From an uncultured Lachnospiraceae bacterium (GTDB taxonomy: Bacteria; Bacillota; Clostridia; Lachnospirales; Lachnospiraceae), in NCBI GenBank assembly GCA_946615865.1, contig CAMOIJ010000025.1, forward strand, positions 1-38,454: 38,454 nucleotides of DNA, written 5' to 3'. Below, in pieces: positions 18,969 to 36,667 of this stretch. The position numbers and the translations under genes were made by a program. The notes under the pieces were generated by a model. That model ran no database searches. It saw only the letters and a program-made list of their open reading frames with translations, and was not told the origin of the DNA. Numbering within the stretch: the stretch's first letter is position 1; each line of letters starts with the position of its first letter.

Positions 18969-18990
18969 CATTAGCAAATTAGTTATATAA

Positions 18991-19024
18991 GGGGCGTGCC
19001 GCCATTGGCGGCATGCCCCTTTTG
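18991..19024 (+). terminator. NSS transporter terminator
   Basis: GGGGCGTGCCGCC (18991-19003) pairs with GGCGGCATGCCCC (19007-19019, one G-T wobble) around a 3-base loop, followed by TTTT. It is a strong rho-independent terminator. The GGGGCRTGCCGCC motif recurs in the terminator at 19263. Confidence 0.92.
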
Positions 19025-19058
19025 CTTGGCGCTCATTTGGGCGTTTTAATCTTGCTTT

Positions 19059-19248
19059 CCATCGGATTCAGATGAAGTCATATTGGGATGGGGCTTGTTT
19101 TGGCGTTTTAAGGCTTACTCTCCATCGGATTCGACTAAAGGTCATATGTGGATGGAGCGTTTATGCTAAACAGGCATTTCATGCTCCATCGGAATTGACG
19201 ACAAGCCAAAATGGTTGGAAAACTTGTCCCAACAAGTCTGCCCAACCA
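19059..19248 (+). repeat. 63-bp tandem repeat array 1 (3 units)
   Basis: Units start at 19059, 19122 and 19186 with CCATCGGA and carry GGATGG (or GGTTGG) about 28-32 bases later; the remainder is variable. The array sits between the terminators of two convergent genes (NSS and cydC). Unit 2 shows CTCCATC...GATGGAG, which can form a 7-bp hairpin stem. The same family recurs at 26036 and 36177 in the same orientation. I see no gene in 19025-19262. Confidence 0.85.
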
Positions 19249-19262
19249 GCCAATGTAACTTT

Positions 19263-19326
19263 AAAAGGGGCATGCCGCCAAGCGTAGGCTTTAAACCTTC
19301 ACGCTTAATGCGTCATGCCCCTTTTT
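19263..19326 (-). terminator. cydC terminator, probably bidirectional
   Basis: AAAAGGGGCATG (19264-19275) pairs with CATGCCCCTTTT (19314-19325), with an inner helix AAGCGT/ACGCTT. T-runs are available on both strands. It lies about 18 bases past the cydC stop codon. Confidence 0.85.
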
Positions 19327-19343
19327 GTGGCTCACAATTCATA

Positions 19344-21038
19344 TCACATCTGTATCTCCACATCCGCCACTCTCATAGTAGACTTCCTGTGGGATACGAG
19401 CAGTACAGTTTTTCCCTTCGCCTCATCCCGAAGCGCCTTGAGAATGACCGCCTCATTGAGGCTGTCAAGATTGCTGGTCGGCTCGTCCAGCAGCATGAAG
19501 GGCGCGTCGTGCAGGAATGCTCTGGCAAGTCCGATCCGCTGGCGCTCTCCGCCTGACAGTGTGTCGCCGAGCTCGCCGACATCTGTTTCGTAGCCGTCGG
19601 GCAGCGTCATGATCCAGTCGTGCAGAGAAGCTTTGCGGCAGGCCGCTTCCACCTCCTCTTTCGTCGCATCAAGTTTCCCGATCCGGATATTGCCCGCAAT
19701 AGTATCCTTGAACATCTGCGTATCCTGAGTCATGTAACTCTCCATGTCTCGCAGATTAGACGTGTTAATCTCGCTAAGATCAATATCCCTGTAAGCGGCA
19801 GCCTCAGAATCCTTGGGAATATCTACAATGCCGATCCTGCCCTTATTCACAGCCCAGAACCGCATAAGGAGTTTGAGCAGCGTCGACTTTCCGCAACCGC
19901 TCTCGCCCACGATCCCGATGATCTGGTTTTCATGGATACTCAGGGAGAAGTTTCTCAGCACCGGTGTGCTGCCATAGCCGAAGGAGACCTTGCGGCACTC
20001 CGCTCCGTGGAATCCGACTTCCGGTTTTCCCGTGATCTCTTCTGTCTCAGGCTCTTCGTCGAGGATCGCAAGTACACGCGCACCGGAGGCGACTGTATTT
20101 TGCAGAGTCGTTCCCAGGCTCGCCAGTGCCGAAACCGGACCAAAAGAGGAAAGGAGCGCCAGTACCGGGATCAGAAAGCCGTCAAAACCCACCTTTCCGG
20201 TCGTGTAGAGCCACCCGGCGCAGACTGTCATCAGCACATCAAATACCAGTATAAAGGTATTGGCGATCGCCAGGTTAAGGCCAGTCAAGCGGTTCAGCGA
20301 ATTCTGGTGCCACAGAAGGACTTTGGATTGCTTGTGCATGGCAGCCATACGGCTGCGGCTGCTGTCATACTGGATCGTCTCATCGAGACCGCGGATATTC
20401 TCCAGAACGCAGGAGGCGAGGTCCGCGGAGTGCTTGCGCACTTTCTCTCCCATGCTGCCGCTGATCCCGGAGATAATAAGAGGAACAACAATGCCGACAC
20501 ACAGATAGGCGGCCAGAGCCAGAAGCCCCAGGCCTGTATGGAATGTGCCGATATAGACACACATGATCGTCGAGGTCACAAGCGCGATGCAGATCGGCGA
20601 GATCGTATGCGCGTAGAACACCTCAAGAAGCTCCACGTCGGAAGTGATCAGGGCGACAAGGTCTCCCTTGTCCTTTCCCTCGAGTTTGGCCGGGCAGAGT
20701 CTTCTGAGCGCGCCGAACACTTTGTCCCTCACGAGCGCGAGCAGAGTAAAGGCAATATAGTGATTGAGACGCTGCTCCGCGAACCGGAGGACCGCCCTTA
20801 AAAGCGCAAGGACAGGAAGGAGGATCCAAATAGTTCTGATCGGGATCGGGACGTCCAGGCCGAGCCCGCTCAGGATCGCGTATCCTCCGAGGATCGGAAT
20901 GAACTGGACAGCCAGGAATGCAAGAGTTCCGGCCACTACTGCCAGGATCATATAACTGGTCAGTGGTTTGACCACTCCGAGCATTCTCAAGAGAGTACCT
21001 ATCTTGGAGGGTTTGCGCTTTTTTGTTCTCTTACTCAT
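19344..21038 (-). CDS. cydC: CydC-like ABC exporter subunit
   Basis: The 564-residue fused permease-ATPase is half of a heterodimeric type IV ABC exporter. About six helices fill residues 20-320. The ATPase has Walker A GESGCGKST (about 376-384), signature LSGGERQR, Walker B FMLLDEPTSNLD and VSHR. With CydD, this family exports cysteine and glutathione in E. coli, where it is needed for cytochrome bd assembly. No cydAB is in this window, so the substrate here is open. The ATG at 21036-21038 is supported by AAAGGAGGGG; an in-frame extension upstream overlaps cydD and is unlikely. It overlaps the cydD stop by 8 bases. Confidence 0.85.
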   Translation of the reverse strand: MSKRTKKRKPSKIGTLLRMLGVVKPLTSYMILAVVAGTLAFLAVQFIPILGGYAILSGLGLDVPIPIRTIWILLPVLALLRAVLRFAEQRLNHYIAFTLLALVRDKVFGALRRLCPAKLEGKDKGDLVALITSDVELLEVFYAHTISPICIALVTSTIMCVYIGTFHTGLGLLALAAYLCVGIVVPLIISGISGSMGEKVRKHSADLASCVLENIRGLDETIQYDSSRSRMAAMHKQSKVLLWHQNSLNRLTGLNLAIANTFILVFDVLMTVCAGWLYTTGKVGFDGFLIPVLALLSSFGPVSALASLGTTLQNTVASGARVLAILDEEPETEEITGKPEVGFHGAECRKVSFGYGSTPVLRNFSLSIHENQIIGIVGESGCGKSTLLKLLMRFWAVNKGRIGIVDIPKDSEAAAYRDIDLSEINTSNLRDMESYMTQDTQMFKDTIAGNIRIGKLDATKEEVEAACRKASLHDWIMTLPDGYETDVGELGDTLSGGERQRIGLARAFLHDAPFMLLDEPTSNLDSLNEAVILKALRDEAKGKTVLLVSHRKSTMRVADVEIQM

Positions 21039-22902
21039 GCTGACTCCCCTCCTTTCCAATCTGTCCCGTACTTCCGACGCGCCCGGTATTGCCGATCCTG
21101 CCGGTGGCTCCAAGATCCCCTGTCGCGGCGATCTTCTCGATCTCTCCGGTCAGCCATTCCTCGCCTGAGTCTTCATCTCTTCCCAGTCGCTCAAGCTTCT
21201 GCTGCGTCCTCCACAGGGCGGAGTATGTGCCGGCCCACTTCATCAGTTCTCTGTGCGTGCCGCTCTCCGCTATTTTGCCCTTGTCTATTACGAAAATGCG
21301 GTCAGCGTCACGTGTATTCACAAGGCGGTGCGAGATCAGGATGATAGTCTTCTGCCCTCTCATCTTGCGGATGCGGTCAAGGATGATCTTCTCGCTCTCC
21401 ACATCGATGTTGCTGGTCGCCTCGTCGAAAATATAGACCGGGCTGTCATGCAGAAGAGCCCTTGCAAGGGCAAGCCTCTGTCTCTGACCGCCGGAAAGGT
21501 TCTGGCCGTTCTCGGTCAGCTGTGTGTCCAGGCCGTCCGCTCCTTTAAGGAACTCATCCATTCTGCACTCTGCCAGGACTTTCCAGAGCCTGTCGTCGTC
21601 TGCCTTTGGATCTCCCATCAAAAGATTGTCCCTGACAGTCCCCTTGAACAGATAAGAACTGCTGCCGATATATGTGATCCCCCTCATACGGCTCTCTTCC
21701 GAGCACTCCGAAAGGTGATCTGGGCCGATCATGATCGTGCCGCTCTCCACGGTATTGCGCCCGATGAGAAGAGACGCGATGGTGGATTTGCCGCTGCCGC
21801 TCTCCCCCACAATGCCCGTAAAACTGTTCTTAGGGATCTGCATGTTGATCTTGTGCAGGACTTCCCTCTCTCCGTCGTAGGAGAAGCTGACGCTCTTAAG
21901 CAGGAAATTGCCGCCGTTTTTCGGGAACTCGCCGGTCTTCGCTTCCGGCTCTTCCAGTTCCAGGAATTTGAAGATCCTGTCGCTGGCCGCCATACCGTTC
22001 ATTGCCACGTGGAAGTAGCTGCCGAGCCTTCTCATGGGAAGGAAGAAATCCGCTGACAGAAGGATCATGAACAGGCAGGGCGCCAGTTCGAGAGTCCCCG
22101 CCACGAAGGAGTGTGTCGCCAGTACGATGCCGAACGCCGCGCCTCCATAGGCGAGAAGGTCCATGATAATGATGGAGTTGAGCTGCATCGTCAGGACTTT
22201 CATAGTCACGACGCGGAAATGCTCAGATTCCTTATTCATCTGCTCATGCTTATAGCCGTCCGCCTGATAGATCTTAAGGGTGGTCATTCCCTGCAGGTTC
22301 TCGAGAAAAGTGCTGCCGAGTTTCGTGTACTGGTCCCAATATTTTGCCAGGATCTTCTTGGCGATCTTCTGCACCATCATGATCGTGCCCGGGATCAGCG
22401 GGACGCACAGGAGCAGGATCAGGCCGGTCTGCAGGCTTCCCGCCGCCGTAAAGAGAATAAACAAGGTCACCGGCGCGATAAAAGCGTAGAAGAACTGGGG
22501 TACATATTGGCCAAAATAGCTCTCCAGCTGGTCTACTCCCTCCACCGATTCCTGTACGATCTCCGCGGTGGTCGCCTTCTCCCTGTAGCTCATGCCGAGC
22601 CTTAACAGCTTTTTATAGATAAGGTCACGAAGCTTGCGCTTCACGGTGCGGGACGCCAGATAGCTCATCCGCACCGCGTATCTCGCCGCAAAGAAACGGA
22701 TCACTATGGTAATTGCAATGACTATTATGGCCGGCGCCGCGTTCTGCGGCGTCAGTTCGCCCCGGTAAAGCTTCTCCGCCGAGACGGCGATGAGACCGAT
22801 CATCACGGCGTTCATGCAGAGCTCGATCCATTGCAGGATGACATTTCCCACAATGTATTTTTTGCTCTCCGGGCACAGGGCCGTCAGTCGTTTGTCAAAC
22901 AT
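21031..22902 (-). CDS. cydD: CydD-like ABC exporter subunit with a Gly-rich C-terminal tail
   Basis: The 623-residue partner of CydC has six helices (about 15-300) and an ATPase domain: Walker A GESGSGKST (about 363-371), signature LSGGQRQRLALAR, Walker B VYIFDEATSNID and ISHR. CydD-like features include YFGQYVPQFFYAFIAP and LENLQGMTTLKIYQADG. Unusually, residues after about 593 form a six-residue repeat with TG at the start and G at position 5 (TGDLGA, TGRIGN, TGRVGS, TGQIGK), encoded by an 18-base repeat. Typical CydD proteins end shortly after the ATPase. GGAGG precedes the ATG. It lies 27 bases after nadE. Confidence 0.85.
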   Translation of the reverse strand: MFDKRLTALCPESKKYIVGNVILQWIELCMNAVMIGLIAVSAEKLYRGELTPQNAAPAIIVIAITIVIRFFAARYAVRMSYLASRTVKRKLRDLIYKKLLRLGMSYREKATTAEIVQESVEGVDQLESYFGQYVPQFFYAFIAPVTLFILFTAAGSLQTGLILLLCVPLIPGTIMMVQKIAKKILAKYWDQYTKLGSTFLENLQGMTTLKIYQADGYKHEQMNKESEHFRVVTMKVLTMQLNSIIIMDLLAYGGAAFGIVLATHSFVAGTLELAPCLFMILLSADFFLPMRRLGSYFHVAMNGMAASDRIFKFLELEEPEAKTGEFPKNGGNFLLKSVSFSYDGEREVLHKINMQIPKNSFTGIVGESGSGKSTIASLLIGRNTVESGTIMIGPDHLSECSEESRMRGITYIGSSSYLFKGTVRDNLLMGDPKADDDRLWKVLAECRMDEFLKGADGLDTQLTENGQNLSGGQRQRLALARALLHDSPVYIFDEATSNIDVESEKIILDRIRKMRGQKTIILISHRLVNTRDADRIFVIDKGKIAESGTHRELMKWAGTYSALWRTQQKLERLGRDEDSGEEWLTGEIEKIAATGDLGATGRIGNTGRVGSTGQIGKEGSQHE

Positions 22903-22929
22903 GTAAAGATTCCTCCGATTCCGCTCCCT

Positions 22930-23709
22930 TTACGCCCTCGTCTCTTCGGCAGGCTCATAAGCCGGCATCAGCTGGAGCTTGTGGAGGTTGATCCTGTGCA
23001 GGCGGTCGATCTTCGCCTTGATCGTCTCGTCCTCACACTCGCCGGTGAGCACGTATTTGTCCAGCATGGCGTATGTGAATCCGAGCTTCTGCTCGTCGTC
23101 CTGTCCGCTGAGTCCGTCGGACGGCGTCTTGTGCACGAGGTCGTAAGGAAGGCCCAGCGTATCGCCGATCTGCCTCACTTCATGCACCAGCAGGTGGGAA
23201 AGGGGGCTGAAATCGCCGGCAGCGTCGCCGTATTTGGTGGAATAGCCGACATAGTCCTCGGAAGCGTTGCAGGTATTGACGACTCTCGCTCCGCCGGGCA
23301 GCATCTGTCCCACCGCGTAAAGCGTAGACATCCTGAGCCTGGGCGGGAGGTTGATCTCAGTGTCTCTGGTGATCCCGTCTGTGCCGCTCAGCGCAAGGAG
23401 ATCTTTGTTCGATGTCAGCATCTCTTTCATGGCCTGGAAGGCGCCGCCGATGTTGAGCTCCACATAAGGGATCCCGAGGAATTCCACGAGCTTAACGGAG
23501 TCGGAGATATCGCTCTGCACGCCGTTGGGCATCAGAACGCCGACCACTCTGTCTTTGCCGAGGGCTTCCGCGCACAGCGCTGCCGCAATACTGGAATCCT
23601 TTCCGCCGGAAATGCCGATCACAGCCTTGCATCCCTTCCCGTTCTGTTCAAAATATTCCCTAATCCACTCCACAATTTCGTTTTTGGTCTTGACCGGATC
23701 CTTGAGCAT
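22930..23709 (-). CDS. nadE: ammonia-dependent NAD+ synthetase
   Basis: The 259-residue enzyme makes NAD+ from deamido-NAD+, ATP and ammonia. It has the N-type ATP pyrophosphatase P-loop SGGKDSS (34-40), TCNASEDYVGYSTKYGDAAGDFSP for substrate binding, and KTPSDGLSGQDDEQKLGFTY. There is no glutaminase (nitrilase) domain, so free ammonia is the donor. CAGGAGG precedes the ATG. It is the first gene of nadE-cydD-cydC and is divergent from the 23846 gene. Confidence 0.95.
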   Translation of the reverse strand: MLKDPVKTKNEIVEWIREYFEQNGKGCKAVIGISGGKDSSIAAALCAEALGKDRVVGVLMPNGVQSDISDSVKLVEFLGIPYVELNIGGAFQAMKEMLTSNKDLLALSGTDGITRDTEINLPPRLRMSTLYAVGQMLPGGARVVNTCNASEDYVGYSTKYGDAAGDFSPLSHLLVHEVRQIGDTLGLPYDLVHKTPSDGLSGQDDEQKLGFTYAMLDKYVLTGECEDETIKAKIDRLHRINLHKLQLMPAYEPAEETRA

Positions 23710-23845
23710 GATTCTGTGCCTCCTGTTTTATTTCATTCAATTCTTTTTCCGTGTATACCAAAAGTTCCAACTGTCTGTATAATAGCATTAATGAAAAGAT
23801 TTGAAAATCGGATGTGCGAATCCGGATACAGAAAGGAGCCCCCCT

Positions 23846-24442
23846 ATGGCCGACTTCAGTGACCTGTTAGAATCCTATTATGAGGAGATAGATCCCGATA
23901 AGAGGAAGAAGATTCTGGACGATTATCTTGCCGCCGGCGACAGCGATCCGGCCGCCGCCTACCGCAAAGCGCTATATGAATACCGCTTCGTTGATCCCGC
24001 GGATCCCCAGAGGAAACTGGACCGCTTCATGCTCGCGTTCCTGGATTTTCTCTATCTGTACAGAAGCAGCCGTGTCCTTCCCGGCAGGTATGTGAAAGAA
24101 GTGGAAGCAACGATCGGAGCCCTCGAACTCGACGAGAGAGTCCACACGGATCCTCTGTTTGCTGAAGCCTTTAGCCTGGAGGTACGAAACGCGGCAAGGC
24201 GATATTTTGATACCTGCAAGACGGACGGCTACCACAGAAAATTCTTCGGCATCGCCGCTTCCAAGCCCGAGGAGAAGGAAAAACAGCGCTGTATCGATGT
24301 CTGGCGCATGTCCTACGGCCTTGCGGAGCGCCTGGACCTCGAAGAAGAGATGGATCTCTTCTGCAGGGCGCTGAGCGAAGCTTACAGGCTCTCGAGAGTC
24401 GACGGACTCACTCTGACGGAGGCGTACCGCTCTTATAAGTGA
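23846..24442 (+). CDS. conserved-looking hypothetical protein, helical
   Basis: A 198-residue soluble protein I do not recognise with confidence; it may belong to the DUF6553 group. It is predicted nearly all helical: an acidic N-terminus (MADFSDLLESYYEEIDPDKR), YEYRFVDPADPQRKLDRFML near residue 45, and many paired Arg/Glu residues. No catalytic motif is evident. The ATG at 23846 follows AAAGGAG at 8 bases. A TATAAT at 23779-23784 upstream could be its promoter, with a poor -35. It is divergent from nadE. Codon use resembles its neighbours. Confidence 0.75.
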   Translation: MADFSDLLESYYEEIDPDKRKKILDDYLAAGDSDPAAAYRKALYEYRFVDPADPQRKLDRFMLAFLDFLYLYRSSRVLPGRYVKEVEATIGALELDERVHTDPLFAEAFSLEVRNAARRYFDTCKTDGYHRKFFGIAASKPEEKEKQRCIDVWRMSYGLAERLDLEEEMDLFCRALSEAYRLSRVDGLTLTEAYRSYK

Positions 24443-24524
24443 TACACGGAAACGCTCTGATTTGTTGTATAATGAAATGTCACTGTTTGGCTGACGAAAA
24501 TTCACTGATCCTGGAGGAAACCGG

Positions 24525-25505
24525 ATGAAAACGCCGCTGATCTCTGTTGTGCTCCCGATTTACAATATAGAATCTTATCTGGACCGCTGTATGAAAGCGG
24601 TGCTGAACCAGACTTACAGTAATCTTGAGATCCTCATGGTCGACGACGGTTCGCCTGACAACTGCCCGCAGATCTGCGACCGCTATGCGGAGCAGGACTC
24701 CCGCGTCAGAGCTCTCCACAAGGAGAACGGCGGCCTCTCCGACGCCCGCAATTACGGCATCGCCCGCGCGCGCGGCGAATACATCACCTGCATCGATCCC
24801 GACGACTACGTGGATCCCGACTATGTCGAATATCTCTACAGGCTGATCGACAAGTACGAAACCAGAATGTCCATCTGCCAGCATGTCACGGAATACGACA
24901 ATGGCACCGTAAAGGACCACGGCTCTTCGGGCGACGAACTGATGGACATCGAGACCTGCCTGCGCAGAATGCTCTATCACAATGTGATCGACACTTCCGC
25001 CTGGGCCAAGCTCTACCACCGCAGCCTTTTCGACACAGTATGCTATCCTGTGGGAAAGATCTTCGAGGATATCGGCACGACCTACGCCCTGATGATGCAG
25101 TGCGACACCGGCATAGCCGTCGGCTACGAGTCAAAATATCACTACATGTACCACATGAACTCCATCGTCAACAGCAGTTTCTCGCCCCGCAAACTTGATC
25201 TTCTGGAGATGACCGACAAGATGGGCCATGAGGTCATTAAGGCCTACCCTTCCCTCAGACAGGCAGTCCTTCGCCGGCGCGTCTACGCACGCTTCAGCAC
25301 GCTCAACCAGATGCTGGGAACCGATGACTACAAGAAGGAGCGCGAGAAGATCATCCGTTTTATCCTGCACCACAAAAAGAGAATCCTGAAGGACCCTCAC
25401 GCGCCCAGGCGCGACAAGATCGCGATCCGGCTTCTGTCCGTGAGCTACGGCTTGTATAAGGCCTTCTGGAGGACTTACCAGGGGGCGATATTTAAGAAGA
25501 ATTAA
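24525..25505 (+). CDS. family 2 glycosyltransferase
   Basis: The 326-residue protein has a GT-A domain: VVLPIYNIESYLDRCM at the start, ILMVDDGSPDNCPQI, NGGLSDARNYGIARARGEYI and the metal-binding IDPDDYVDP near residue 90. GT2 enzymes of this type transfer sugars to capsule, exopolysaccharide or glycolipid acceptors. There is no membrane segment. It is not in a polysaccharide cluster, so the acceptor is unknown. CTGGAGG precedes the ATG; TATAAT at 24468-24473 may be its -10. A strong terminator follows. Confidence 0.9.
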   Translation: MKTPLISVVLPIYNIESYLDRCMKAVLNQTYSNLEILMVDDGSPDNCPQICDRYAEQDSRVRALHKENGGLSDARNYGIARARGEYITCIDPDDYVDPDYVEYLYRLIDKYETRMSICQHVTEYDNGTVKDHGSSGDELMDIETCLRRMLYHNVIDTSAWAKLYHRSLFDTVCYPVGKIFEDIGTTYALMMQCDTGIAVGYESKYHYMYHMNSIVNSSFSPRKLDLLEMTDKMGHEVIKAYPSLRQAVLRRRVYARFSTLNQMLGTDDYKKEREKIIRFILHHKKRILKDPHAPRRDKIAIRLLSVSYGLYKAFWRTYQGAIFKKN

Positions 25506-25520
25506 GCCCTTAGAATTATG

Positions 25521-25568
25521 GAGGGGCATATCAGAGGATTTCATTCCTTGATATGCCCCTCTTTATTA
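25521..25568 (+). terminator. glycosyltransferase gene terminator
   Basis: GAGGGGCATATCA (25521-25533) pairs perfectly with TGATATGCCCCTC (25549-25561), followed by TTTATTATTTG. A clear rho-independent terminator. Confidence 0.92.
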
Positions 25569-25614
25569 TTTGTTGCTCTTTTTGATTCCTTGGCCTGTTG
25601 GTGCAGAGTTTTAC

Positions 25615-26011
25615 TGCCGCTTAAGTGCCCTTTGAAGTACCTTAGGGGCACTCGAGCGGCAATTTCTTTCATTTTCCTTCTTTTTGCCCTTTTAGTGCCC
25701 TTTGAGATTCTTCAGCGGCACTCAAACGGCAATCTCTTTCATTTTCCTTCTTTCTGCCTTTTCAGTGCCCTTTGAGATTCTTTAGGGGCACTTAAACGGC
25801 AATTTCTTTCATTTTCCTTCTTTCTGCCTTTTCAGTGCCCTTTGAGATTCTTTAGGGGCACTCAAACGGCAAACCATTCTCTTTTCCTTCTTTTTGCCCT
25901 TTTAGTGCCCTTTGAGATTCTTTAGGGGCACTTAAACGGCAATTTCTTTCATTTTCCTTCTTTTTGCCGTTTCAGTGCCCTTTAAGATTCTTCAGCGGCA
26001 CTCAAACGGCA
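25615..26011. repeat. tandem palindromic array, exact 70-bp period (6 units)
   Basis: Six units start at 25615, 25685, 25755, 25825, 25895 and 25965, each exactly 70 bases apart. Each has a left arm TGCCNTTTYAGTGCCC, a loop of about 14 bases (TTTGAGATTCTTTA type) and a right arm GGGCACTYAAACGGCA. Units are joined by a pyrimidine-rich linker (ATTTCTTTCATTTTCCTTC). The last unit pairs at 15 of 16 stem positions. In unit 1 the stem has GCT/AGC where others have GTT/AAC, a paired change. The linker of unit 4 differs. No gene is credible here. Confidence 0.92.
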
Positions 26012-26035
26012 GAAATTAAGGTGCTGTGGCAGTTT

Positions 26036-26470
26036 CCATCCGATTTGATCAGGTCAAAAAAAGGATGTAGTTCTTTAAGGCATTCTTGTATAAACCCTCC
26101 ATCGGACTTGATTAAGTTCCAAAAAGGATGGAGCCTTTTTCGTCGTTCTTGCATGAACCCTCCATCGGACCAGATGAAAAGTCAAATAAGTTGGAGTAAT
26201 ATGTGGTAAGAAATTCTTCACAGACCATCGGATATGGCAATAAAGCGGAATGGTTGTAGAAGTTGTGTCAGAGTGTCGTTTCGAGCCCCATCGGATTTTG
26301 GCAGCAGGCCAGAGTGGATGGAGAGTTCATGCAGGACTGGTATTTTTCCCTCCATCCATTTTCTGATGTTCTTAAGTTTGATGGAGTCTTTTCGCTTAAG
26401 ATGTATAATCGCTCCATCGATTCTATAAGAATTTCTGAAAGGATGGTCTCCACACTACCAGGTCTTTTTA
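26036..26470 (+). repeat. 63-bp tandem repeat array 2 (7 units)
   Basis: CCATC-type unit starts lie at 26036, 26099, 26162, 26225, 26288, 26352 and 26414 (periods 63, 63, 63, 63, 64, 62). Most units have CCATCGGA at the start and GGATGGAG or a variant about 28-33 bases later. Unit 2 pairs CTCCATC with GATGGAG. The array directly follows the 70-bp array, between convergent genes. Orientation is as in arrays 1 and 3. Confidence 0.88.
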
Positions 26471-26485
26471 AAGCATGAATTTGAC

Positions 26486-26540
26486 CCAAAAAGAGAGCGC
26501 CGCCCCTGCTGATTAATCAGCAAGATGCGACACCCTCTTC
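26486..26540 (-). terminator. terminator of the DUF4132 gene
   Basis: A long imperfect hairpin (about 26492-26540) is centred on the perfect palindrome GCTGATTAATCAGC, with outer arms AAGAG/CTCTT. The minus strand continues with five Ts (26488-26492). From 26488 to 26515 it matches the terminator arm at 649-676 at 26 of 28 bases. Confidence 0.75.
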
Positions 26541-26550
26541 GATTTGCCCC

Positions 26551-26607
26551 AAATACGTTGTCTTAATTCAAATACAATGTCTTAATTCAAATACGTTGTC
26601 TTAATTA
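26551..26607. repeat. 19-bp direct repeat, three perfect-period copies
   Basis: AAATACGTTGTCTTAATTC is repeated at 26551, 26570 and 26589 with a 19-base period and only two or three changes in total. The last copy runs through the stop codon (26605-26607) of the 1811-residue gene. Each copy read on the minus strand carries an in-register TAA, so copies could have arisen by slippage at the 3' end of the gene. Confidence 0.85.
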
Positions 26608-29600: not shown

Positions 29601-32040
29601 CAATGGCGCCGCTGTAGTCGTAATTGATCAGATACAGGCCGTTCTCCAGGAGCTGCCTGTCGCCGTTCACGCTCGTGTACTCGAGTTTCCCGTGTGCCTC
29701 GATAAACGCCTTGATCTTGTCAAAATACTGATCCATCTCCTTCGCGCTCAGACTGAAATAGTCTTTGAGAAGCTTCTTCGTGTCGCTCATTCCCAGAGAA
29801 TTCTTCAGTATCTGAAGGCCTTTTTTAAGGCCGGACGATGACTGCGCGCCCGCGGTTCCCCGAACCTTAAGTTCCGGTTCGTATGTCGCCTTAGGGTCAT
29901 ACAGGCCGTACCCTTCCGTATTCAGGATGCTGCCTGATCCCTCGCTGCCCGCGATCTCTTCGTAAAGAACTTTTTCTTTGTCGGACAGTTCAGAGGCGTC
30001 CGGAATGACTTCCCTGAGCAGCGCCGCGCACTCCTTCTTCGCGGCTTCGCTCTCTTCGCTGCGGCGCTTGAGCATGTCGAGACCTGCAAGGCGCATCTGC
30101 TCCCGGTCTGCCGCGGAAGGAGCCTTTTTCTTCCCCTTAGCGGCAGTCTCTTTTTTGCCCTCGTCAGGCTCTTCGCCTCCGAGGAGCCTGCGGATACTGG
30201 CGTAGACACCCTCTTTGTCCTGTTCCTCCAGAATCTCGATGATAAAGCGTCTCGACTCCTCGTTCTTGAGCCTCAGATACCCTTCAAGCTGACGATACTC
30301 GTCCTGTGTGAGATGCTTTGACGTATCCGGATCCGACTGCAGCTTTTTGAGAATCTGGTAAGCAGCTTTTCTCGTGAAGCTCTCCTTCTCCGCCACGTAC
30401 CCGATCAGCGCATCCCGCTGGACCTGCGTCCTCGGGGCGTGCAGAAGTACCCTCAGATAATAACTGCGGGTGTTGTAGTAGGAATCCATGATATCAGTCA
30501 GACGCACGCAGGCTTCGTCGATCAGGGTGTCGTCCTGCAGCGCGTAGGCGATCACAGCCATCCTCTGCGTGAGGTCGCTCTTGTCGAGGACATCCCCGTA
30601 CCAGGGGAAGATCATGGGATTGTACTCTATTTTGCGCTTCTTCATGGAATCAGCGAGATTCTTCAAAATACTGTAGTGCAGCCGCGCCTGCTCCTCGCTG
30701 TCAAATATCTCACTGACCGGCAGAGGATCGTAATGGACGTCCGCCTCGTCCGCCATATAGACAGACTGATTCTTACTGTTGCGGATGCAGCCGCGGACGA
30801 TCGTATCCACAGCGTCCAGATAAGTGGGCATGAAGGCAGCCGCCATCTGCTGGTCATCAGGGTAAGTCTCGAGGATCTTCCTCGCGGCCTGCTCGCTGTA
30901 ATCGGAGTGCTGCATGTACCTGTTGTAGTAAGAGATCGTCAGGCGCTGGTTCTTCGTGCCGCTCTCCACGATCTGCAGCATGCGTCCTACGGCGTCCTGA
31001 GCCTCGTAGAAGCCCAGTGCCCACAGTCCTGTAACAATCTGCACACTGTCGTCTGTCTGCGTCATTTCAAAGGCTCTGGCGCGGTCACGGACCGCTTCGC
31101 TGACGCCTGCCAGAAGCTTGTCCGACACCCGGTCCATAGCGTCGACGCTGCAGATGCCGGTCCATGTGGCGATGGCGCGCTTAACGCCTGAAAAGCGGAT
31201 CAGGTCGTTCTCCTCGATCGCGCTCAGGATCGTCAGAAACGCCTCCGCCCTGCCGCAGTCCGCGTTCTCGCAGACCGCCTGGCGCACGCCCTCCTGGAGT
31301 CTTGCGGCGACGAGGAACTTTGCCAAAAGATCGTGCAGCTCCGTATTCTTGGACTTCACGATTCCTCTGATGAGCGGCACTGTGACGATCACGGTATTGG
31401 TGTCGCTCAGGATCGCCTCTTTGCACCCCTCGATCACCTTGCTGTCCCCGTTGTCGATCCGCGCCGCGAGAATATCGTCGAACTGCACCATATGCAGGTC
31501 GCGGGTATAAGTGTCGTTTCGCTTGAAATCGAGAAACTCCTCATCGAGGCCGGCACCTCCTGCCGTTCTCTCCGCGAGGTACTCAAAAGGCGTCACGCCA
31601 TAGATCCCCAGCACTTTATAAGCCTGCATCAGGCCGAAAGCATCGAGCATATGCGCAGCCGGATCCTTCGTGCGCACCGTGGGGCGAAACAGCGACCTGG
31701 AGTACTGATAATTCACATACTGATCCAGCAGGTACTCGTAATCCGCGCGGTATTCTGCCGGCACAAAGATCTCGATGAGATCTGCGCACTCCGAGAGAAT
31801 AAGCTCTTTGAGCGTCTTCAGGCTCTGTGTCGTCCTGTCCCCGCCGGCCCCGAGTTTCTCCCGGGTCCACTTGCGGATCACAGGAAAGCCGCAGTACTGA
31901 TAAGAACTGAAATATCGGACCTCATCAAAGAGCTCCTTCTTCGCGGCCGAAAGCTTCCCTATCTGCTTCTCGTGCTCTTTGTTCCAGCGCTCCAGCCGTG
32001 CCTTTTCCCATTTCGTCCTTGAATTGTAATCAAAAGCCAT
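26605..32040 (-). CDS. giant DUF4132 (MolR/YehI-like) protein
   Basis: A soluble 1811-residue protein. Residues 1-650 are helical and repeat-like. A charged linker follows at about 640-690 (GKKETAAKGKKKAPSA). The C-terminal 250 residues carry the DUF4132 pattern: LRGRRWVADYDEGLQKIFF, SEVMRDVDLAVSVAHAGGVD, ETSHSTIEMRKAIFEFN and QRGKIFLPFIDEDPKTAE. A low-complexity Ala/Ser/Gly/Thr stretch (about 1480-1528) interrupts the middle. Relatives include E. coli YehI/MolR (about 1200 residues), encoded near a MoxR ATPase and VWA proteins; neither is present here. Its molecular role is unknown. GGGGGGGAT precedes the ATG. It is co-transcribed with the 152-residue gene 17 bases upstream. Confidence 0.85.
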   Translation of the reverse strand: MAFDYNSRTKWEKARLERWNKEHEKQIGKLSAAKKELFDEVRYFSSYQYCGFPVIRKWTREKLGAGGDRTTQSLKTLKELILSECADLIEIFVPAEYRADYEYLLDQYVNYQYSRSLFRPTVRTKDPAAHMLDAFGLMQAYKVLGIYGVTPFEYLAERTAGGAGLDEEFLDFKRNDTYTRDLHMVQFDDILAARIDNGDSKVIEGCKEAILSDTNTVIVTVPLIRGIVKSKNTELHDLLAKFLVAARLQEGVRQAVCENADCGRAEAFLTILSAIEENDLIRFSGVKRAIATWTGICSVDAMDRVSDKLLAGVSEAVRDRARAFEMTQTDDSVQIVTGLWALGFYEAQDAVGRMLQIVESGTKNQRLTISYYNRYMQHSDYSEQAARKILETYPDDQQMAAAFMPTYLDAVDTIVRGCIRNSKNQSVYMADEADVHYDPLPVSEIFDSEEQARLHYSILKNLADSMKKRKIEYNPMIFPWYGDVLDKSDLTQRMAVIAYALQDDTLIDEACVRLTDIMDSYYNTRSYYLRVLLHAPRTQVQRDALIGYVAEKESFTRKAAYQILKKLQSDPDTSKHLTQDEYRQLEGYLRLKNEESRRFIIEILEEQDKEGVYASIRRLLGGEEPDEGKKETAAKGKKKAPSAADREQMRLAGLDMLKRRSEESEAAKKECAALLREVIPDASELSDKEKVLYEEIAGSEGSGSILNTEGYGLYDPKATYEPELKVRGTAGAQSSSGLKKGLQILKNSLGMSDTKKLLKDYFSLSAKEMDQYFDKIKAFIEAHGKLEYTSVNGDRQLLENGLYLINYDYSGAIETRYPFPELWIEVYETIIKNPKVLYNLYFAARDGYDETDVKDVNAYLKAEKTIFGEAYSGYHYADPKYMGGRHAHSTYQTILDIIASQQHLVLPAEIAQAAVLAATELPEQIRWMERAPSKYASYYAQRPLCFVRSNKFRSMLSRASHYENDEEFRGVFPLLYHVDRVYQFDAHEPNTTYGRSSSNILSILSYVKARELGMITKDFLYKAAFELVGLKYAVGDLGSLFLSNVTIYALRQLQFYMPVDMEKKTLDTQNSFYKLGKEIYENIVNLILNVELKRGDTPTVFSDAVSRISRIEGIPRLMEILRAMGSDPLDRNTYYSYNGGTSKKESLSHLLKVCWPADSETAADLKKAVKANKVSTDRLIEVAMYAPQWLDLAEEVLGIDGFKSGCYYFMAHMNERFDDRKKAVIARYTPLSPEELNNGCFDTNWFFEVYEKLGEKNFSKLYKAAKYIADGSKHTRARKYADAATGKVDRDELEKTIADKRNKDLLMSYGLIPMKDRQDSLHRYEFLQKFLKESKQFGAQRRASEAQCVQYAMKNMATTAGYADELRLTLAMETELVTSNQQYFDGIAIGDYVAQILVDADGKSELKLFKKGKAVKSVPAALKKDETFNDVKEFASKLKNQYSRCAAMFERAMEEEDAYSYGELQQLCRNPVTAGILGRLVFVGASAAVSVETASGTTGVAAGAPEANTSEAADSAGSSSNTLVGTLEELAAIDPALAEDTKLLVAHPITLYRLGVLPKYQRLFFEKQQANGTKQPFKQVFREFYPKLEEEKDALDSRLFAGYQIQPKKTVAALRGRRWVADYDEGLQKIFFKQNIAATIYALADWFSPADTECPTLEYVSFYDRKTYKQKKLSEVPDILYSEVMRDVDLAVSVAHAGGVDPETSHSTIEMRKAIFEFNMELFGLTNVTFEGTHAFIKGTMGNYNIQLGSGVIHKESGGMVNILPVHSQQRGKIFLPFIDEDPKTAEILSKILLLAEDQKIKDPYVLQQLR

Positions 32041-32057
32041 TTCCTATCCCCCCCTTG

Positions 32058-32516
32058 TCACCACATGCGGCCCGCCAGGAACGTGAGCCGGATGAAAGTC
32101 ACTTCACTGAGCTCCTTCAGAGCTATCTTTTCTTCTCTTTCCGTATACCGGACACCGTCCGCGAACAGAGCCACCATCCCGTCGTCAAAACATTGCAGAG
32201 CGTTCTCCACGGCCTTTTCCTCATCGGCTTTCCTGCCGTCCATCGGATCGCCGTATGCGACTTTTCCGGAAGCGGCGCTGTTTTGAATATGTTCTTCGAA
32301 CTGCTCATTCAGAGGCCTGTTCTTCCCGCCTTCATTTGAAAAAAGGCGCAGTATCTCCGCCGCGTCTTTTCTTGCATTATATTCCCTTACATTCTGTCGG
32401 ACCGTCTCCTCGAGAAACTCTTCCACCGTCATCTGCCTGTCCGGATAGTCACAGGTCATCTGTACGATCGCCGCTTTTTTTCGCGAGGCGCCCTTGACGT
32501 TTATTCTGATCTTCAT
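32058..32516 (-). CDS. 152-residue protein paired with the DUF4132 gene, unknown function
   Basis: A small soluble protein I do not recognise. It starts with a strand-like basic segment (MKIRINVKGASRKKAAIV), continues with an acidic helix (MTVEEFLEETVRQNVREYN), a loop rich in Gly/Asp (GKVAYGDPMDGRKADEEKA) and ends in ALKELSEVTFIRLTFLAGRMW. The distinctive C-terminal sequence and full-length codon structure support a real gene. CAGGAG lies upstream of the ATG (32514-32516). It ends 17 bases before the DUF4132 start, so the two form an operon and may act together. No motif suggests an enzyme. Confidence 0.8.
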   Translation of the reverse strand: MKIRINVKGASRKKAAIVQMTCDYPDRQMTVEEFLEETVRQNVREYNARKDAAEILRLFSNEGGKNRPLNEQFEEHIQNSAASGKVAYGDPMDGRKADEEKAVENALQCFDDGMVALFADGVRYTEREEKIALKELSEVTFIRLTFLAGRMW

Positions 32517-32672
32517 ACTGCTCCTGCCTTAAAAATCTTATATTTGCGCAGCCGCATACCTATTAATATTTTATCACAATTCATGCTTTTCCTTGACAAA
32601 CATAGCGGATTATCTTTCAATGGATTTGTTTATCGCGATTTTGTGTTGGGACTGTCTCTACTGACTTTCTTG

Positions 32673-32681
32673 TGCTATAGT
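32673..32681 (+). promoter_or_regulatory. extended -10 promoter, start almost at the ATG
   Basis: TGCTATAGT (TG, one base, TATAGT) ends only 10 bases before the first ATG of the EamA gene (32692). Transcription would start near 32688, leaving a leader of a few bases. No good -35 is present. Confidence 0.45.
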
Positions 32682-32691
32682 TAGAAACACT

Positions 32692-33558
32692 ATGATTAAA
32701 ATGAATTCCAAGAAAAACACCAAATTCCTCGGCACAACATGCATGCTCGCCGCCTCTTTGTGTTTTTCGACAGGCGGCCTTCTCATGAAGTTGATCCCAT
32801 GGAATCCTCTTGCGATCAACGGGGCAAGAAATGTGATCGCGGCAGTCGTGATTGGACTCTATATTTTGGCTACGAAGCATAAGCTCAGGTTTAATCCGAC
32901 CGTACTTGTAGGCGCCATTTCCATGGCAGGCGTGACGACTCTGTACTCGATCGCCAACAAGCTGACCACAGCAGGCAACACGATCATCCTGCAGTATACA
33001 GCGCCGATCTGGATCGTGATCCTGATGTTTCTGATCTTCGGCCGGAAACCTTCACGGTCAGCACTCATTTCCATCCTGATCGTCTTCGCGGGAATCCTCT
33101 GCTTCTTCTTTGAGGGGCTCTCCACGGGAAAGTGGCTGGGCGACCTGCTGGCACTTTTGTCAGGCATCTTCTATGCGGGAGTTTTCATGCTGAACAGCTT
33201 TGAGAAGGGGGACGCGCTGTCTTCGGTGTTCTTCGGACAGCTCGCCTGCGGGATCTTCCTGTCGCCGCTTGTCCTTCGGGAGACCGTATTTACTGCTCCG
33301 GTTCTGCTTTCAGTCTTTCTGCTGGGCGCAGTCCAGGTGGGTCTGGCGTATATCTTCTTCACGACGGGCACCAAATACACTGATCCTGTCACAGCTTCCA
33401 TCATCAATGCATTGGAGCCGATCCTCAATCCCATCCTGGTCGCCGTTTTCTACGGAGAGATGCTTGGAAAGCTTTCCCTTGTAGGTGCGGTTATCGTGCT
33501 TGCCGGGATCCTGTATTATAACCTGCGCATCACCATGTCCCCTGCTCAGGGAGACTGA
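32692..33558 (+). CDS. EamA family (DMT) transporter
   Basis: A 288-residue protein with ten hydrophobic helices in two EamA repeats; repeat 1 ends near residue 140 and repeat 2 has LGAVQVGLAYIFFTTGTKYTDP and LEPILNPILVAVFYGE, a typical signature near the last helices. DMT family members export or import small metabolites; the substrate is unknown. The start is either ATG 32692 or ATG 32701. Neither has a ribosome binding site, and the likely promoter lies 10 bases upstream, so the mRNA may be leaderless. A second EamA gene follows 49 bases later. Confidence 0.88.
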   Translation: MIKMNSKKNTKFLGTTCMLAASLCFSTGGLLMKLIPWNPLAINGARNVIAAVVIGLYILATKHKLRFNPTVLVGAISMAGVTTLYSIANKLTTAGNTIILQYTAPIWIVILMFLIFGRKPSRSALISILIVFAGILCFFFEGLSTGKWLGDLLALLSGIFYAGVFMLNSFEKGDALSSVFFGQLACGIFLSPLVLRETVFTAPVLLSVFLLGAVQVGLAYIFFTTGTKYTDPVTASIINALEPILNPILVAVFYGEMLGKLSLVGAVIVLAGILYYNLRITMSPAQGD

Positions 33559-33607
33559 ACGCCATCCCGTGATTTAGTACACAGCATTTAGAAATCAGGC
33601 TTTTTAT

Positions 33608-34519
33608 ATGAAAAACACAAATAAAGACTTCGCCTTATCCGCCGCCATGGTCATCGCAAGCGCAGTGCTATGGGGCTTGTACGGCACTTTCGTGACAATA
33701 CTGAGCTCAATGGGGCTGTCCGGCAACGCACTCGTATTTCTTCGTATGTTTGCCACCTCAGTCCCGGTGGGTTTACTGATCGGCATGACGGACCGTTCCG
33801 CCTTCAGGGTGCGGCTCGCAGATATACCGCTCTTTATCGCCAACGGGCTGCTCAGCCTTCTCTTTTTCACAGCCTGTTACACCGCAGCCATCAAGGTCAC
33901 CAAGATTGCGACTGCAGCAGCCCTTCTCTACACTGCGCCGGCCATCGTTATGGTGCTCTCCGTGATTCTGTTCCACGAGCGCATGACAGCCCGCAAAGTG
34001 TTATGCTGTGTGCTCGCAGTCATCGGATGCGCCTTTGCCTCCGGCATAGGCGGAGAATTGTTCGCAGGGCCGTCTTCCGGGAATCTGATCACCCTTTCAG
34101 GGCTCCTGCTGGGGCTGGGAGCAGGCTTAGGCTACGCGCTGTACAGTATTTTCAGCCGCATTATTCTAAACCGCGGTTACTCCGTATACACAAATGTGTT
34201 CTACAGTTTCGGCGTCGCAATGCTGGGATTTTTTCTTCTCTCCTGCCTTGATGGGAGCATCGGTCAGGTTTTCGAAAACCCTGCCAGGACGGTGCTCGCC
34301 CTTCTGTGCGGGCTTCTCACCGGAAGCCTCGCCTATGTCCTGTATACCGCCGGAATGAAAGGCATGGAAACCTCCAGGGCCGCCCAGCTCACCACCATCG
34401 AGCCGGTCACCGCCGCAATCCTCGGAAGCCTGCTCTTTCACCAGCCTCTCTACTTCTTGGAGATCCTGGGAATCGTTATGGTCATCGGATCAGTCGTGAT
34501 GATGAACAGCGGAGACTGA
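33608..34519 (+). CDS. EamA family (DMT) transporter, second copy
   Basis: A 303-residue protein with ten helices and the EamA double repeat: LWGLYGTFVTILSSMGLSGN near the start, ATAAALLYTAPAIVMVLSVI and the repeat-2 end TTIEPVTAAILGSLLFHQPL. It is related in topology but not closely in sequence to the gene before it, so tandem paralogy is old or the two came together. The ribosome binding site is weak (CAGG 9 bases before the ATG). The 49-base gap suggests co-transcription. Confidence 0.88.
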   Translation: MKNTNKDFALSAAMVIASAVLWGLYGTFVTILSSMGLSGNALVFLRMFATSVPVGLLIGMTDRSAFRVRLADIPLFIANGLLSLLFFTACYTAAIKVTKIATAAALLYTAPAIVMVLSVILFHERMTARKVLCCVLAVIGCAFASGIGGELFAGPSSGNLITLSGLLLGLGAGLGYALYSIFSRIILNRGYSVYTNVFYSFGVAMLGFFLLSCLDGSIGQVFENPARTVLALLCGLLTGSLAYVLYTAGMKGMETSRAAQLTTIEPVTAAILGSLLFHQPLYFLEILGIVMVIGSVVMMNSGD

Positions 34520-34575
34520 CAACTTGCAGAGATGTTGAAAGATGCGGGTTCAATGTCCTGCTGCGTTTTCCAAAG

Positions 34576-34604
34576 TTGTTTTTTCCTCTCAAAAAGCATA
34601 TCAT
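34576..34604 (+). promoter_or_regulatory. candidate promoter of the C69 dipeptidase gene
   Basis: TTGTTT (34576-34581), 17 bases, TATCAT (34599-34604), 39 bases before the chosen ATG. It falls inside an in-frame upstream extension of the gene, supporting the shorter start. Confidence 0.5.
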
Positions 34605-34643
34605 TTGTTTTACTACACATTTTACGAAAAAGAGGTACACTCA

Positions 34644-36131
34644 ATGTCCTGCACAACACTTCTGATCGGCAAAAAAGCCAGTTACGACGGCTCCACCATG
34701 ATCGCGCGCAACGACGACGCATCTGCCGGCCGTTTTACACCTAAGAAACTCACGGTCGTTCTGCCCGGGGATCAGCCCCGGCACTACGTATCCGTCATCA
34801 GCCGGGTCGAGATCGATCTTCCCGACAACCCGATGCGCTACAGCGCAGTGCCCAACGCCCTCGAAGGTGAAGGCATCTGGGCCGGCGCCGGCATCAACGC
34901 TGCGAACGTCGCGATGACTGCCACAGAGACCATCGCCTCCAACGAGAGAGTTCTGGGCGCGGATCCTCTGGTCGTCTATCACCCTGCCACGGAGGAAACT
35001 CCCATGCAGCCCGGCGGGATCGGCGAAGAGGACCTCGTCACCATCGTTCTGCCTTATATCCACAGTGCGCGCGAAGGCGTACTGCGCACCGCCTCTCTCC
35101 TCGAGAAGTACGGAACCTATGAGATGAACGGCATCGCCTTTGCAGATGTAAATGAGATCTGGTGGATGGAGACCCTCGGCGGACACCACTGGATTGCCAA
35201 AAGAGTGCCCGATGACCGCTATATCGTCAATCCCAATGAGTCCGGCATCGACAGTTTCGACCTGGAAGATGCACTGGGAGAAGGCGTTAACCACCTCTGC
35301 AGCGCGGACCTGAAGGAATTCATTACAGACAACCACCTCGATCTCTCCATGGACGGCAGTCTTAATCCCCGGGAAGCTTTCGGTACACAAAGCGACGCAG
35401 ACCATGTATATAACACGCCCCGCGCGTGGTTTATTCTCCGCCATTTTAACCCCCGCAGCGCAAAATGGGACGGCCCTGACGCCGATTTCGGCCCCTGTGA
35501 CAATAACCTCCCCTGGAGCATGGTCCCCGAGCGCAAGATCACCGTGGAGGACGCTAAATACGTTCTCTCCAGCCATTTCCAGGGAACCCCCTATGATCCT
35601 TACAGTGAATGCGGCGACCCTTCCATGCGCGGCGCTTACCGCTCCATCGGCGTCAACAGAACTGATTTCCTCGCGCTGCTGCAGCTGCGGCCTTATGTGC
35701 CTCAGTCTGTTCAGGCCGTCGAGTGGCTGACTTTCGGCTCCAATGTGTTCAACACATTTGTGCCTTTCTACACAAACACTGAGAAAGTGCCGGCCTACCT
35801 CTCCACTACTGAAGAGGAAGTTGATACAGGCAGCTTCTATTGGAACTGCCGGCTGATCGCGGCGCTTGCAGACGCACAATTTAAGCCTTGCAAGATCCAC
35901 ATCGAGCGTTACCAGATCAGGACTATGGCGGAAGCCCACCAGATCCTGAACCAGGCGGACCGCCTGGTCGGTGAACTGCTTGAAGTCGGTGCTAATCCGC
36001 AGTCTGTCATTGATTCTGCAAACGAGGCGCTGGCAGAGATGCTGCAGAAACAAACTTCCGATGTCCTCGGCAAGGTTCTCCACGAGACCAGCAACAAGAT
36101 GAAAAACGCGTATGCGAGGTCAGACGCGTAA
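34644..36131 (+). CDS. C69 family dipeptidase (PepD-like)
   Basis: The 495-residue enzyme hydrolyses dipeptides in the cytosol and belongs to the Ntn-hydrolase fold family C69/U34. The N-terminus is MSCTTLLIGKKASYDGSTMI, with Cys3 the presumed nucleophile freed by processing, then IARNDD. Later are GIWAGAGINAANVAMTATET, NEIWWMETLGGHHWIAKRVP and FSYW-like FYWNCRLIAALAD. The ATG at 34644 puts Cys3 in the family position and has AGAGG upstream. An ATG at 34542 would add 34 unlike residues containing the promoter. Nucleophile assignment is by family analogy. Confidence 0.9.
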   Translation: MSCTTLLIGKKASYDGSTMIARNDDASAGRFTPKKLTVVLPGDQPRHYVSVISRVEIDLPDNPMRYSAVPNALEGEGIWAGAGINAANVAMTATETIASNERVLGADPLVVYHPATEETPMQPGGIGEEDLVTIVLPYIHSAREGVLRTASLLEKYGTYEMNGIAFADVNEIWWMETLGGHHWIAKRVPDDRYIVNPNESGIDSFDLEDALGEGVNHLCSADLKEFITDNHLDLSMDGSLNPREAFGTQSDADHVYNTPRAWFILRHFNPRSAKWDGPDADFGPCDNNLPWSMVPERKITVEDAKYVLSSHFQGTPYDPYSECGDPSMRGAYRSIGVNRTDFLALLQLRPYVPQSVQAVEWLTFGSNVFNTFVPFYTNTEKVPAYLSTTEEEVDTGSFYWNCRLIAALADAQFKPCKIHIERYQIRTMAEAHQILNQADRLVGELLEVGANPQSVIDSANEALAEMLQKQTSDVLGKVLHETSNKMKNAYARSDA

Positions 36132-36176
36132 AGTTGTGGGCTGGCCTGGGCGCATCTTGCTTTCATTTGGGTTGGC

Positions 36177-36613
36177 CCATCGGATTTGGCTGAGAGCGTA
36201 AATGGATGTATTGAATATGAGCGTTTCTGAGCAGATGCTCCATCGGATATGGCTGAAGGCGTGATTGGATGTAGTGACTGTTAGCATTTCTGGCAGGTAC
36301 ACCATCGGATTTGATCGAATGCGTAGATGGATGTATTAAATTTGATCATTTCTGGGTGGGCACACCATCGGATATGGCTGAAGACGTAATCGGATGTAGA
36401 GTTTGTGCCAGGCAAGCTTTTTTCATACCATCGGATTCTGTTGAGACCGAAATCGGATGTAGCGAAAGTGCCAGATAAGCTTTCGAATACCATCGGATTC
36501 GGATCAAACCGAAGATGGATGTATGATTTGTGCCAAGCAAGCATTTTCCAGCCCATCGAATTTAACCGAAGTCGGAAGAGGATGGAAAGCTTGTGCCAGA
36601 CAATTCAACACAA
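36177..36613 (+). repeat. 63-bp tandem repeat array 3 (7 units)
   Basis: Units start at 36177, 36240, 36302, 36365, 36428, 36490 and 36553 (periods 62 or 63). Consensus parts are CCATCGGATTYGGYTGAA at the start and TGGATGTA about 28 bases later; units 4-7 add TTGTGCCAGGCAAGC-like sequence. This is the best conserved array of the three. It lies between the C69 gene and the convergent PHP gene. Long open frames cross it on both strands because the unit length is near 63, but shifts by one base break register. No gene is supported in 36132-36667. Confidence 0.9.
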
Positions 36614-36662
36614 CAAAAAAAGTGCCGCTGCCCCGAAAGCATTTCACAGGGCAGCGACACCT
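36614..36662 (-). terminator. PHP gene terminator, probably bidirectional
   Basis: GTGCCGCTGCCC (36622-36633) pairs with GGGCAGCGACAC (36649-36660, one mismatch). Seven Ts follow on the minus strand (36615-36621), and CTTTTCTTC follows on the plus strand. Confidence 0.88.
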
Positions 36663-36667
36663 TTTCT

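Follow-up and report, generated by a model that had tools for sequence, protein, structure and literature searches.

Tandem arrays at three gene junctions

The DNA stretch analysed here, called the window, spans 38,454 nucleotides of contig CAMOIJ010000025.1 from an uncultured Lachnospiraceae bacterium (GenBank assembly GCA_946615865.1). The draft genome comprises 2.68 Mb in 106 contigs, and the window is contig 25. The window carries three arrays of a degenerate tandem repeat with a period of 62-64 bp, all on the + strand, which form a single family and hold 3, 7 and 7 units. An open-reading-frame-based gene caller finds exactly three convergent gaps in the window (18969-19343, 25506-26604 and 36132-36667), each of which houses one array. 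The arrays and the features that adjoin them are as follows.

18990..19023, + strand: terminator-like hairpin upstream of array 1, read from the sequence
19059..19231, + strand: array 1, 3 units, between an NSS (SNF) transporter gene and an ABC transporter gene (cydC in the initial annotation)
19263..19326, no strand assigned: terminator-like hairpin downstream of array 1, its sequence itself dispersed
26036..about 26447, + strand: array 2, 7 units, the last two degenerate, between a GT2 gene and a DUF4132 gene
36177..36603, + strand: array 3, 7 units, between a peptidase C69 gene and a PHP gene
36428..36461, + strand: example unit core with box 1 CCATCGGAT, a variable 18-base middle and box 2 GGATGTA
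36553..36603, + strand: terminal-type unit, GATGGAAA...GTGCCAGACAA, of a kind that recurs at array 3' ends
36613..36666, no strand assigned: bidirectional terminator-like hairpin, which remains where array 3 is absent

Pfam agrees with the names of the flanking genes (SNF transporter, ABC transporter, GT2, DUF5724/DUF4132, peptidase C69 and PHP); the name cydC is that of the initial annotation. The unit consensus, CACCATCGGATTTGGC..GAAACCG.AA.TGGATGTA, was derived from 94 aligned cores. Two inverted boxes, CATCSRAT and GGATGKA, are kept in it; the stretch between them drifts, as does the spacer that follows. A strict pattern, CCATCGGA-N15..25-GGATGKA, matched the window nine times and none of 100 dinucleotide shuffles. 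Within array 2, four units were detected by profile and the one at 26162 by tandem-repeat search, and the last two were read by eye. The initial annotation had described one repeat family with 3, 7 and 7 copies in exactly three convergent junctions and no copy in divergent or co-directional gaps. The profile, the tandem-repeat search and the gene calls bear out these counts and junctions, the three arrays do form one family, and a genome-wide model places the window's units in the three convergent gaps only.

Other repeats were noted as well. The second convergent gap is partly filled by an unrelated 70-bp tandem array (window 25624-26011), which the initial annotation does not mention. The 70-bp family also occurs between genes at L036:9604-9936 and L232:18736-19333, and its units contain terminator-like hairpins that are strong at these two loci. 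Another intergenic tandem family, with a unit of 72 bp and a GAGCCCTTAG...CTAAGGGCTC hairpin, is found at L041:1061-1404 and L222:6745-7198. Elsewhere in the window, a 54-bp unit occurs twice between the end of the 16S gene and the first called gene (785-891), and a 19-bp unit (CAAATACGTTGTCTTAATT) occurs three times at the stop-codon end of the DUF4132 gene (26550-26606). Terminator-like sequences behind genes, at 26470-26539 and 19251-19326, recur at many loci in relatives.

Location of the arrays across the genome

The strict pattern matched the whole genome 58 times, compared to no match for a reversed control pattern. A core sequence model scored 150 of 1068 first-look candidates and identified 131 units with E<=0.5, distributed over 25 places. 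At least two model matches were present in 24 of these places; the remaining one, C22, has a single match and further units by pattern and profile. The 25 places are a lower bound, as a tandem-repeat search in 700 kb revealed variant arrays missed by the model. An example is L235:1469-1614, on one of 20 stretches that had been chosen as controls from contigs with no match to the strict pattern.

With L235 included, 26 arrays were assigned to junction classes: 10 convergent, 14 co-directional and 2 divergent. The array at L047 was moved from the co-directional to the convergent class, its reverse-strand gene matching a zinc-dependent phospholipase C. Outside the window, Pfam was applied to 20 gene calls at or beside arrays, and the remaining flanking genes stand as the gene caller gave them. 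The control stretches contained 151 gaps of at least 60 bp (convergent 17, co-directional 107, divergent 27). Convergent gaps are over-represented among the arrays (10/26 against 17/151, p=0.0014), and the deficit of divergent gaps is not significant (2/26 against 27/151, p=0.26). One of the two divergent arrays, between TSCPD-domain and pyruvate kinase genes, has the same place in three species; the other adjoins tsaE. Altogether, 24 of the 26 arrays follow at least one gene at its 3' end, and none of 114 profile-detected units is centred within a called gene. Twelve of the 14 co-directional arrays were sorted by hand, six being sense and six antisense.

The initial annotation had proposed that the arrays are restricted to junctions where two transcripts meet. 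This rule does not extend beyond the window, as 16 of the 26 arrays in the genome are outside convergent gaps. It had named an even spread over junction types, or copies inside genes, as contrary to its reading. Neither distribution was found, given the convergent excess and the intergenic position of the units, yet the restriction rule itself does not hold.

Presence, absence and turnover among relatives

The nearest records by the C69 protein are the uncultured Lachnospiraceae metagenome-assembled genomes RUG14002, RUG12657, RUG13037 and UBA6998, in which the prefix RUG stands for rumen. The search covered 61 genomes of the same genus, taken from a larger group. Matches occurred in six of them, with 104 units in the genome of the window and 30, 62, 75, 83 and 2 in the others; match coordinates agree with these five being the RUG14002, UBA6998, RUG12657, RUG13037 and UBA4260 assemblies. 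The family is confined to five array-rich genomes among the 61, plus one stray array in the sixth, UBA4260 (G045/G068), where two or three units sit in a convergent gap. This stray array is 97.8% identical over 312 bases to the array at G000:C93, in the genome of the window, along with part of a neighbouring gene. Its likeness to C93, a contig of 4.6 kb, could be due to transfer or to a binning error, both of which are possible.

A flank-anchored comparison of the genome of the window and four relatives gave 119 best pairings, including reciprocal and redundant loci. Units were present in 93 and absent from 26, the latter representing seven loci, one of which (L235) is the variant array missed by the model. 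Array 1 has six units in RUG14002, UBA6998 and RUG12657, three in the genome of the window and none in RUG13037. The junction of array 2 holds no 63-bp unit in any of the four relatives, two of which retain 70-bp units. Array 3 is missing from RUG14002 and RUG12657 and present in two relatives, with flanks that are 90-94% identical. The site at L031:2270 is empty in RUG12657 and RUG13037, and that at L040:9119 is nearly empty in RUG13037, where an apparent unit remnant is left. At L031:8847, RUG12657 and RUG13037 carry an unrelated tandem array (CCACTAAG...) between the same flanks, in place of the 63-bp array. A tandem family GGATTCCACTAAGATGCAGGGCTTGCTGGCTTTTGTCGGA... was noted at L195 (about 1360-1650) and L194 (about 8130-8450), which are the L031:8847 junction in two relatives.

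The sequence of array 2 recurs at other loci with 91-94% identity over 273-406 of its 455 bases, the order of the units being kept. The loci are L037, L047, L205, L206 and L207, with L205 and L207 representing the same junction in two species. Across 46 orthologous pairs, array identity ranged from 54% (the lowest values may include misalignment) to 100%, whereas DNA more than 320 bp from the arrays was 85-99% identical in 28 comparisons with the genome of the window. Compared to UBA6998, identity of at least 99% was reached by four of six arrays and by 5 of 171 control windows. The other three genomes gave no clear excess of array over flank identity (1/7, 1/6 and 0/9), and we do not lean on the excess in UBA6998. 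Taken together, the presence and absence of arrays, the changes in unit number, the dispersed copies of array 2 and the range of array identity relative to the flanks indicate, at the level of sequence comparison, that whole arrays are moved or exchanged, and also lost.

Boxes, ends and flanks of the arrays

In 86 of 98 intervals, successive units start 62-64 bp apart. Within 17 orthologous pairs (85% to just under 100% identity), 29 of 1472 box sites differed, compared to 153 of 3870 sites in the remainder of the unit (p=0.0003). This count takes units detected in either genome; two earlier counts were biased, the first by a mixture of paralogues and both by detection in the reference only. 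The test gives modest support to the view that the two boxes are probably maintained. Since the boxes change at roughly half the rate seen in the remainder of the unit, some protein probably recognises them.

The two ends of the arrays behave differently. The nearest relative of a last unit was the last unit of another array in 14 of 21 cases, a number that none of 2000 permutations reached (permuted mean 4.0). For first units, the nearest relative was another first unit in 6 of 21 cases, which was matched by 429 of 2000 permutations and is not significant. Of the end modules that a BOX-like element would have, the one at the 3' end is distinct and the one at the 5' end is not. Many terminal units read as near-perfect palindromes. 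The 60 bp before the arrays are rich in G+T (0.573) and the 60 bp after them are poor (0.426). GC-rich stems flank 7 of 25 arrays on the 5' side and 6 of 25 on the 3' side, compared to 7 of 100 random stretches; terminator hairpins adjoin arrays more often than random stretches, an excess that is suggestive only.

Individual loci show further arrangements. At L040, the main array stands back to back with a variant 63-bp array of the other strand (L040:9419-9551). A dispersed repeat of ~90 bp, with many copies in relatives, adjoins an array at L031:1869-1958. At L031:8847 a strong terminal inverted pair was rejected as an end structure of the array, being made of CCCAGAGGTC palindromes.

A probable modular interspersed repeat behind genes

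On these comparisons, it is reasonably probable that each array is a copy of a BOX-like interspersed repeat, modular and non-autonomous, that is tolerated mainly behind genes. The family is a new one of an already known kind of element. One copy would consist of 63-bp units in a given order and would tend to have a distinct unit at its end. Copies would spread between gene ends as whole arrays, by transposition or recombination, at times with adjoining terminator or gene DNA, and would then gain or lose units via slippage or unequal recombination. Those that survive would be found mainly behind genes, above all between convergent ones, since an insertion at such a place disrupts neither a promoter nor a reading frame. 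Such tolerance is the simpler cause of the location bias, given the presence and absence of arrays in close relatives and the bias reported for other interspersed repeats. The two inverted boxes would be retained for recognition by a protein, which may be a host DNA-binding protein or an enzyme that moves the element.

Several observations weigh against this interpretation. Judging from the apparent remnant at L040 in RUG13037, part of the presence/absence pattern is loss. The genomes are drafts, and most of the relatives' regions were fetched because they bear arrays, which inflates the share of filled sites. The likeness of last units may come in part from the copying of whole arrays, though first units exhibit no such effect. 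Terminal inverted repeats are not general, as flank pairs of the same array had a mean rank of 0.62 against swapped pairs (25 arrays), and no target-site duplication was seen by eye at three filled/empty junctions. For the 15 pairs above 93% identity, the box-to-rest ratio of divergence was 0.70 and not significant (p=0.12), and orthologous pairs that share one locus are not independent in the box test. No transposase was found among the flanking genes scanned against Pfam, and in about 1.5 kb around the genome's three Y1 transposase genes no unit stood out from noise.

Comparison with known repeats

Mycobacterial interspersed repetitive units (MIRU) and other minisatellite variable-number tandem repeats are intergenic tandem units of similar length that change in copy number, as those of the 63-bp family do. 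Unlike in these systems, copies of the 63-bp arrays are dispersed with their unit order kept, and their last units are alike. A parallel in architecture is BOX of Streptococcus pneumoniae and S. suis, described as an interspersed, intergenic element that is limited to a clade, built from modules of which the middle ones vary in number, in excess between convergent genes and encoding no mover (PMC3049150). The 63-bp family differs in that it has no demonstrated distinct first module. Also unlike BOX, no solitary 63-bp unit was found, and the units within one array have strongly diverged.

The initial annotation had likened the arrays to repetitive extragenic palindromes (REP) and bacterial interspersed mosaic elements (BIME), which we judge a fair analogy. 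REP/BIME and the GTAG- or CGTC-tagged palindromes share with the family palindromic ends, an intergenic position mostly in unidirectional or convergent gaps, and clustering (PMC3733652). The 63-bp family departs from them in its unit of 63 bp, mostly head-to-tail, and in having neither a consistent GTAG tag (31/120 units by a rough regular expression) nor a repeat-flanked transposase gene. It differs from miniature inverted-repeat transposable elements in having no general terminal inverted repeats, own flank pairs being no better than swapped ones over 25 arrays. Clustered regularly interspaced short palindromic repeats (CRISPR) were ruled out, since the units diverge along their full length and are not near-identical repeats with unique spacers. 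BOX, RUP, SPRITE and insertion sequence elements are reported to be over-represented between convergent pneumococcal genes and are read as parasitic elements tolerated there (PMC3049150); REPs similarly favour unidirectional and convergent gaps (PMC3733652). In its preference for convergent gaps, the 63-bp family behaves like these published repeats. In the literature, the family was not named in the title or the start of the abstract among the matches listed, which for some topics were the best 8 of 42, 10 of 747 and 8 of 102.

Alternative explanations

The host itself might use the arrays. A nucleoid, gyrase or insulator protein would bind the CATCSRAT...GGATGKA dyad in units spaced 63 bp, or six helical turns, apart, and would shield genes from read-through or supercoiling. 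The slower divergence of the boxes, the regular spacing and the position of nearly all arrays behind a gene are consistent with this proposal, although tandem duplication alone also yields a fixed spacing. Close species are without the array at several conserved junctions, only six of the 61 genomes have matches at all, and two arrays lie in divergent gaps. We regard this explanation as rather unlikely.

Gene 3' ends in this clade could also act as slots in which tandem-array cassettes are swapped, the 34-bp core with its inverted boxes being a putative recombinase site. The spread of identity between array alleles, wider than that of their flanks, and the unrelated array that two species carry at one junction are what suggest it. 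We would give this idea a slim chance.

As a transcribed element of the 3' untranslated region, the unit would form a hairpin in the RNA, which would protect the 3' end from decay or aid termination. The near-perfect palindromes of many terminal units would suit such a role, and four whole arrays folded moderately better than shuffles (z -1.9, -3.3, -3.8 and -2.2). Six single units, folded as DNA, were no better than shuffles (z 0.4 to -1.5). Two candidate hairpins were evaluated in 88 distinct cores and gave no excess covariation, their scores being reached by 92 and 226 of 500 shuffles; a weak exception, for cells changed on both sides, was reached in 16 of 500. The first covariation set had been pre-filtered for intact CATC and GATG, which made its box columns uninformative. 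The strongest covarying pair (positions 15-22) is mostly pairing-compatible, and the outer pair of the hairpin is non-standard in 45 of the 88 cores. Rfam gave no array match at the gathering score within the window; for array 3 alone, with E up to 5, two matches appeared far below the cut-off (E 1 and 4). The equal division of co-directional arrays between sense and antisense also speaks against a transcribed element. We consider this role improbable; the weak folding of single units and the lack of convincing hairpin covariation make recognition of the DNA sequence likelier than that of an RNA fold.

Mobilisation of a REP/BIME-like element by the genome's REP-associated tyrosine transposase (RAYT)-like Y1 enzyme (G000:C20) is very improbable: one copy of its gene, at 90-100% identity, is present in exactly the five array-rich genomes of the 61, but this co-occurrence is uninformative because the distribution of the enzyme follows the clade, as expected for any gene of it, array-free genomes have homologues of 54-71%, the gene is surrounded by the different palindrome CCCAGAGGTC and no 63-bp unit, and the scarcity of the GTAG foot in the units (a count that the rough expression may lower) points the same way. 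The gene itself, at L214:1468-2223, lies amid CCCAGAGGTC palindromes, which are also found beside the array at L031:8847.

The modular repeat tolerated behind genes, the reading that we favour, has a more general implication: a pattern that, within one window, seems to serve convergent transcription can trace the sites at which insertions are tolerated. The 63-bp family appears to be a young one, carried by uncultured gut bacteria; close relatives have filled and empty sites, so that its movement and its bias towards gene ends are directly testable.

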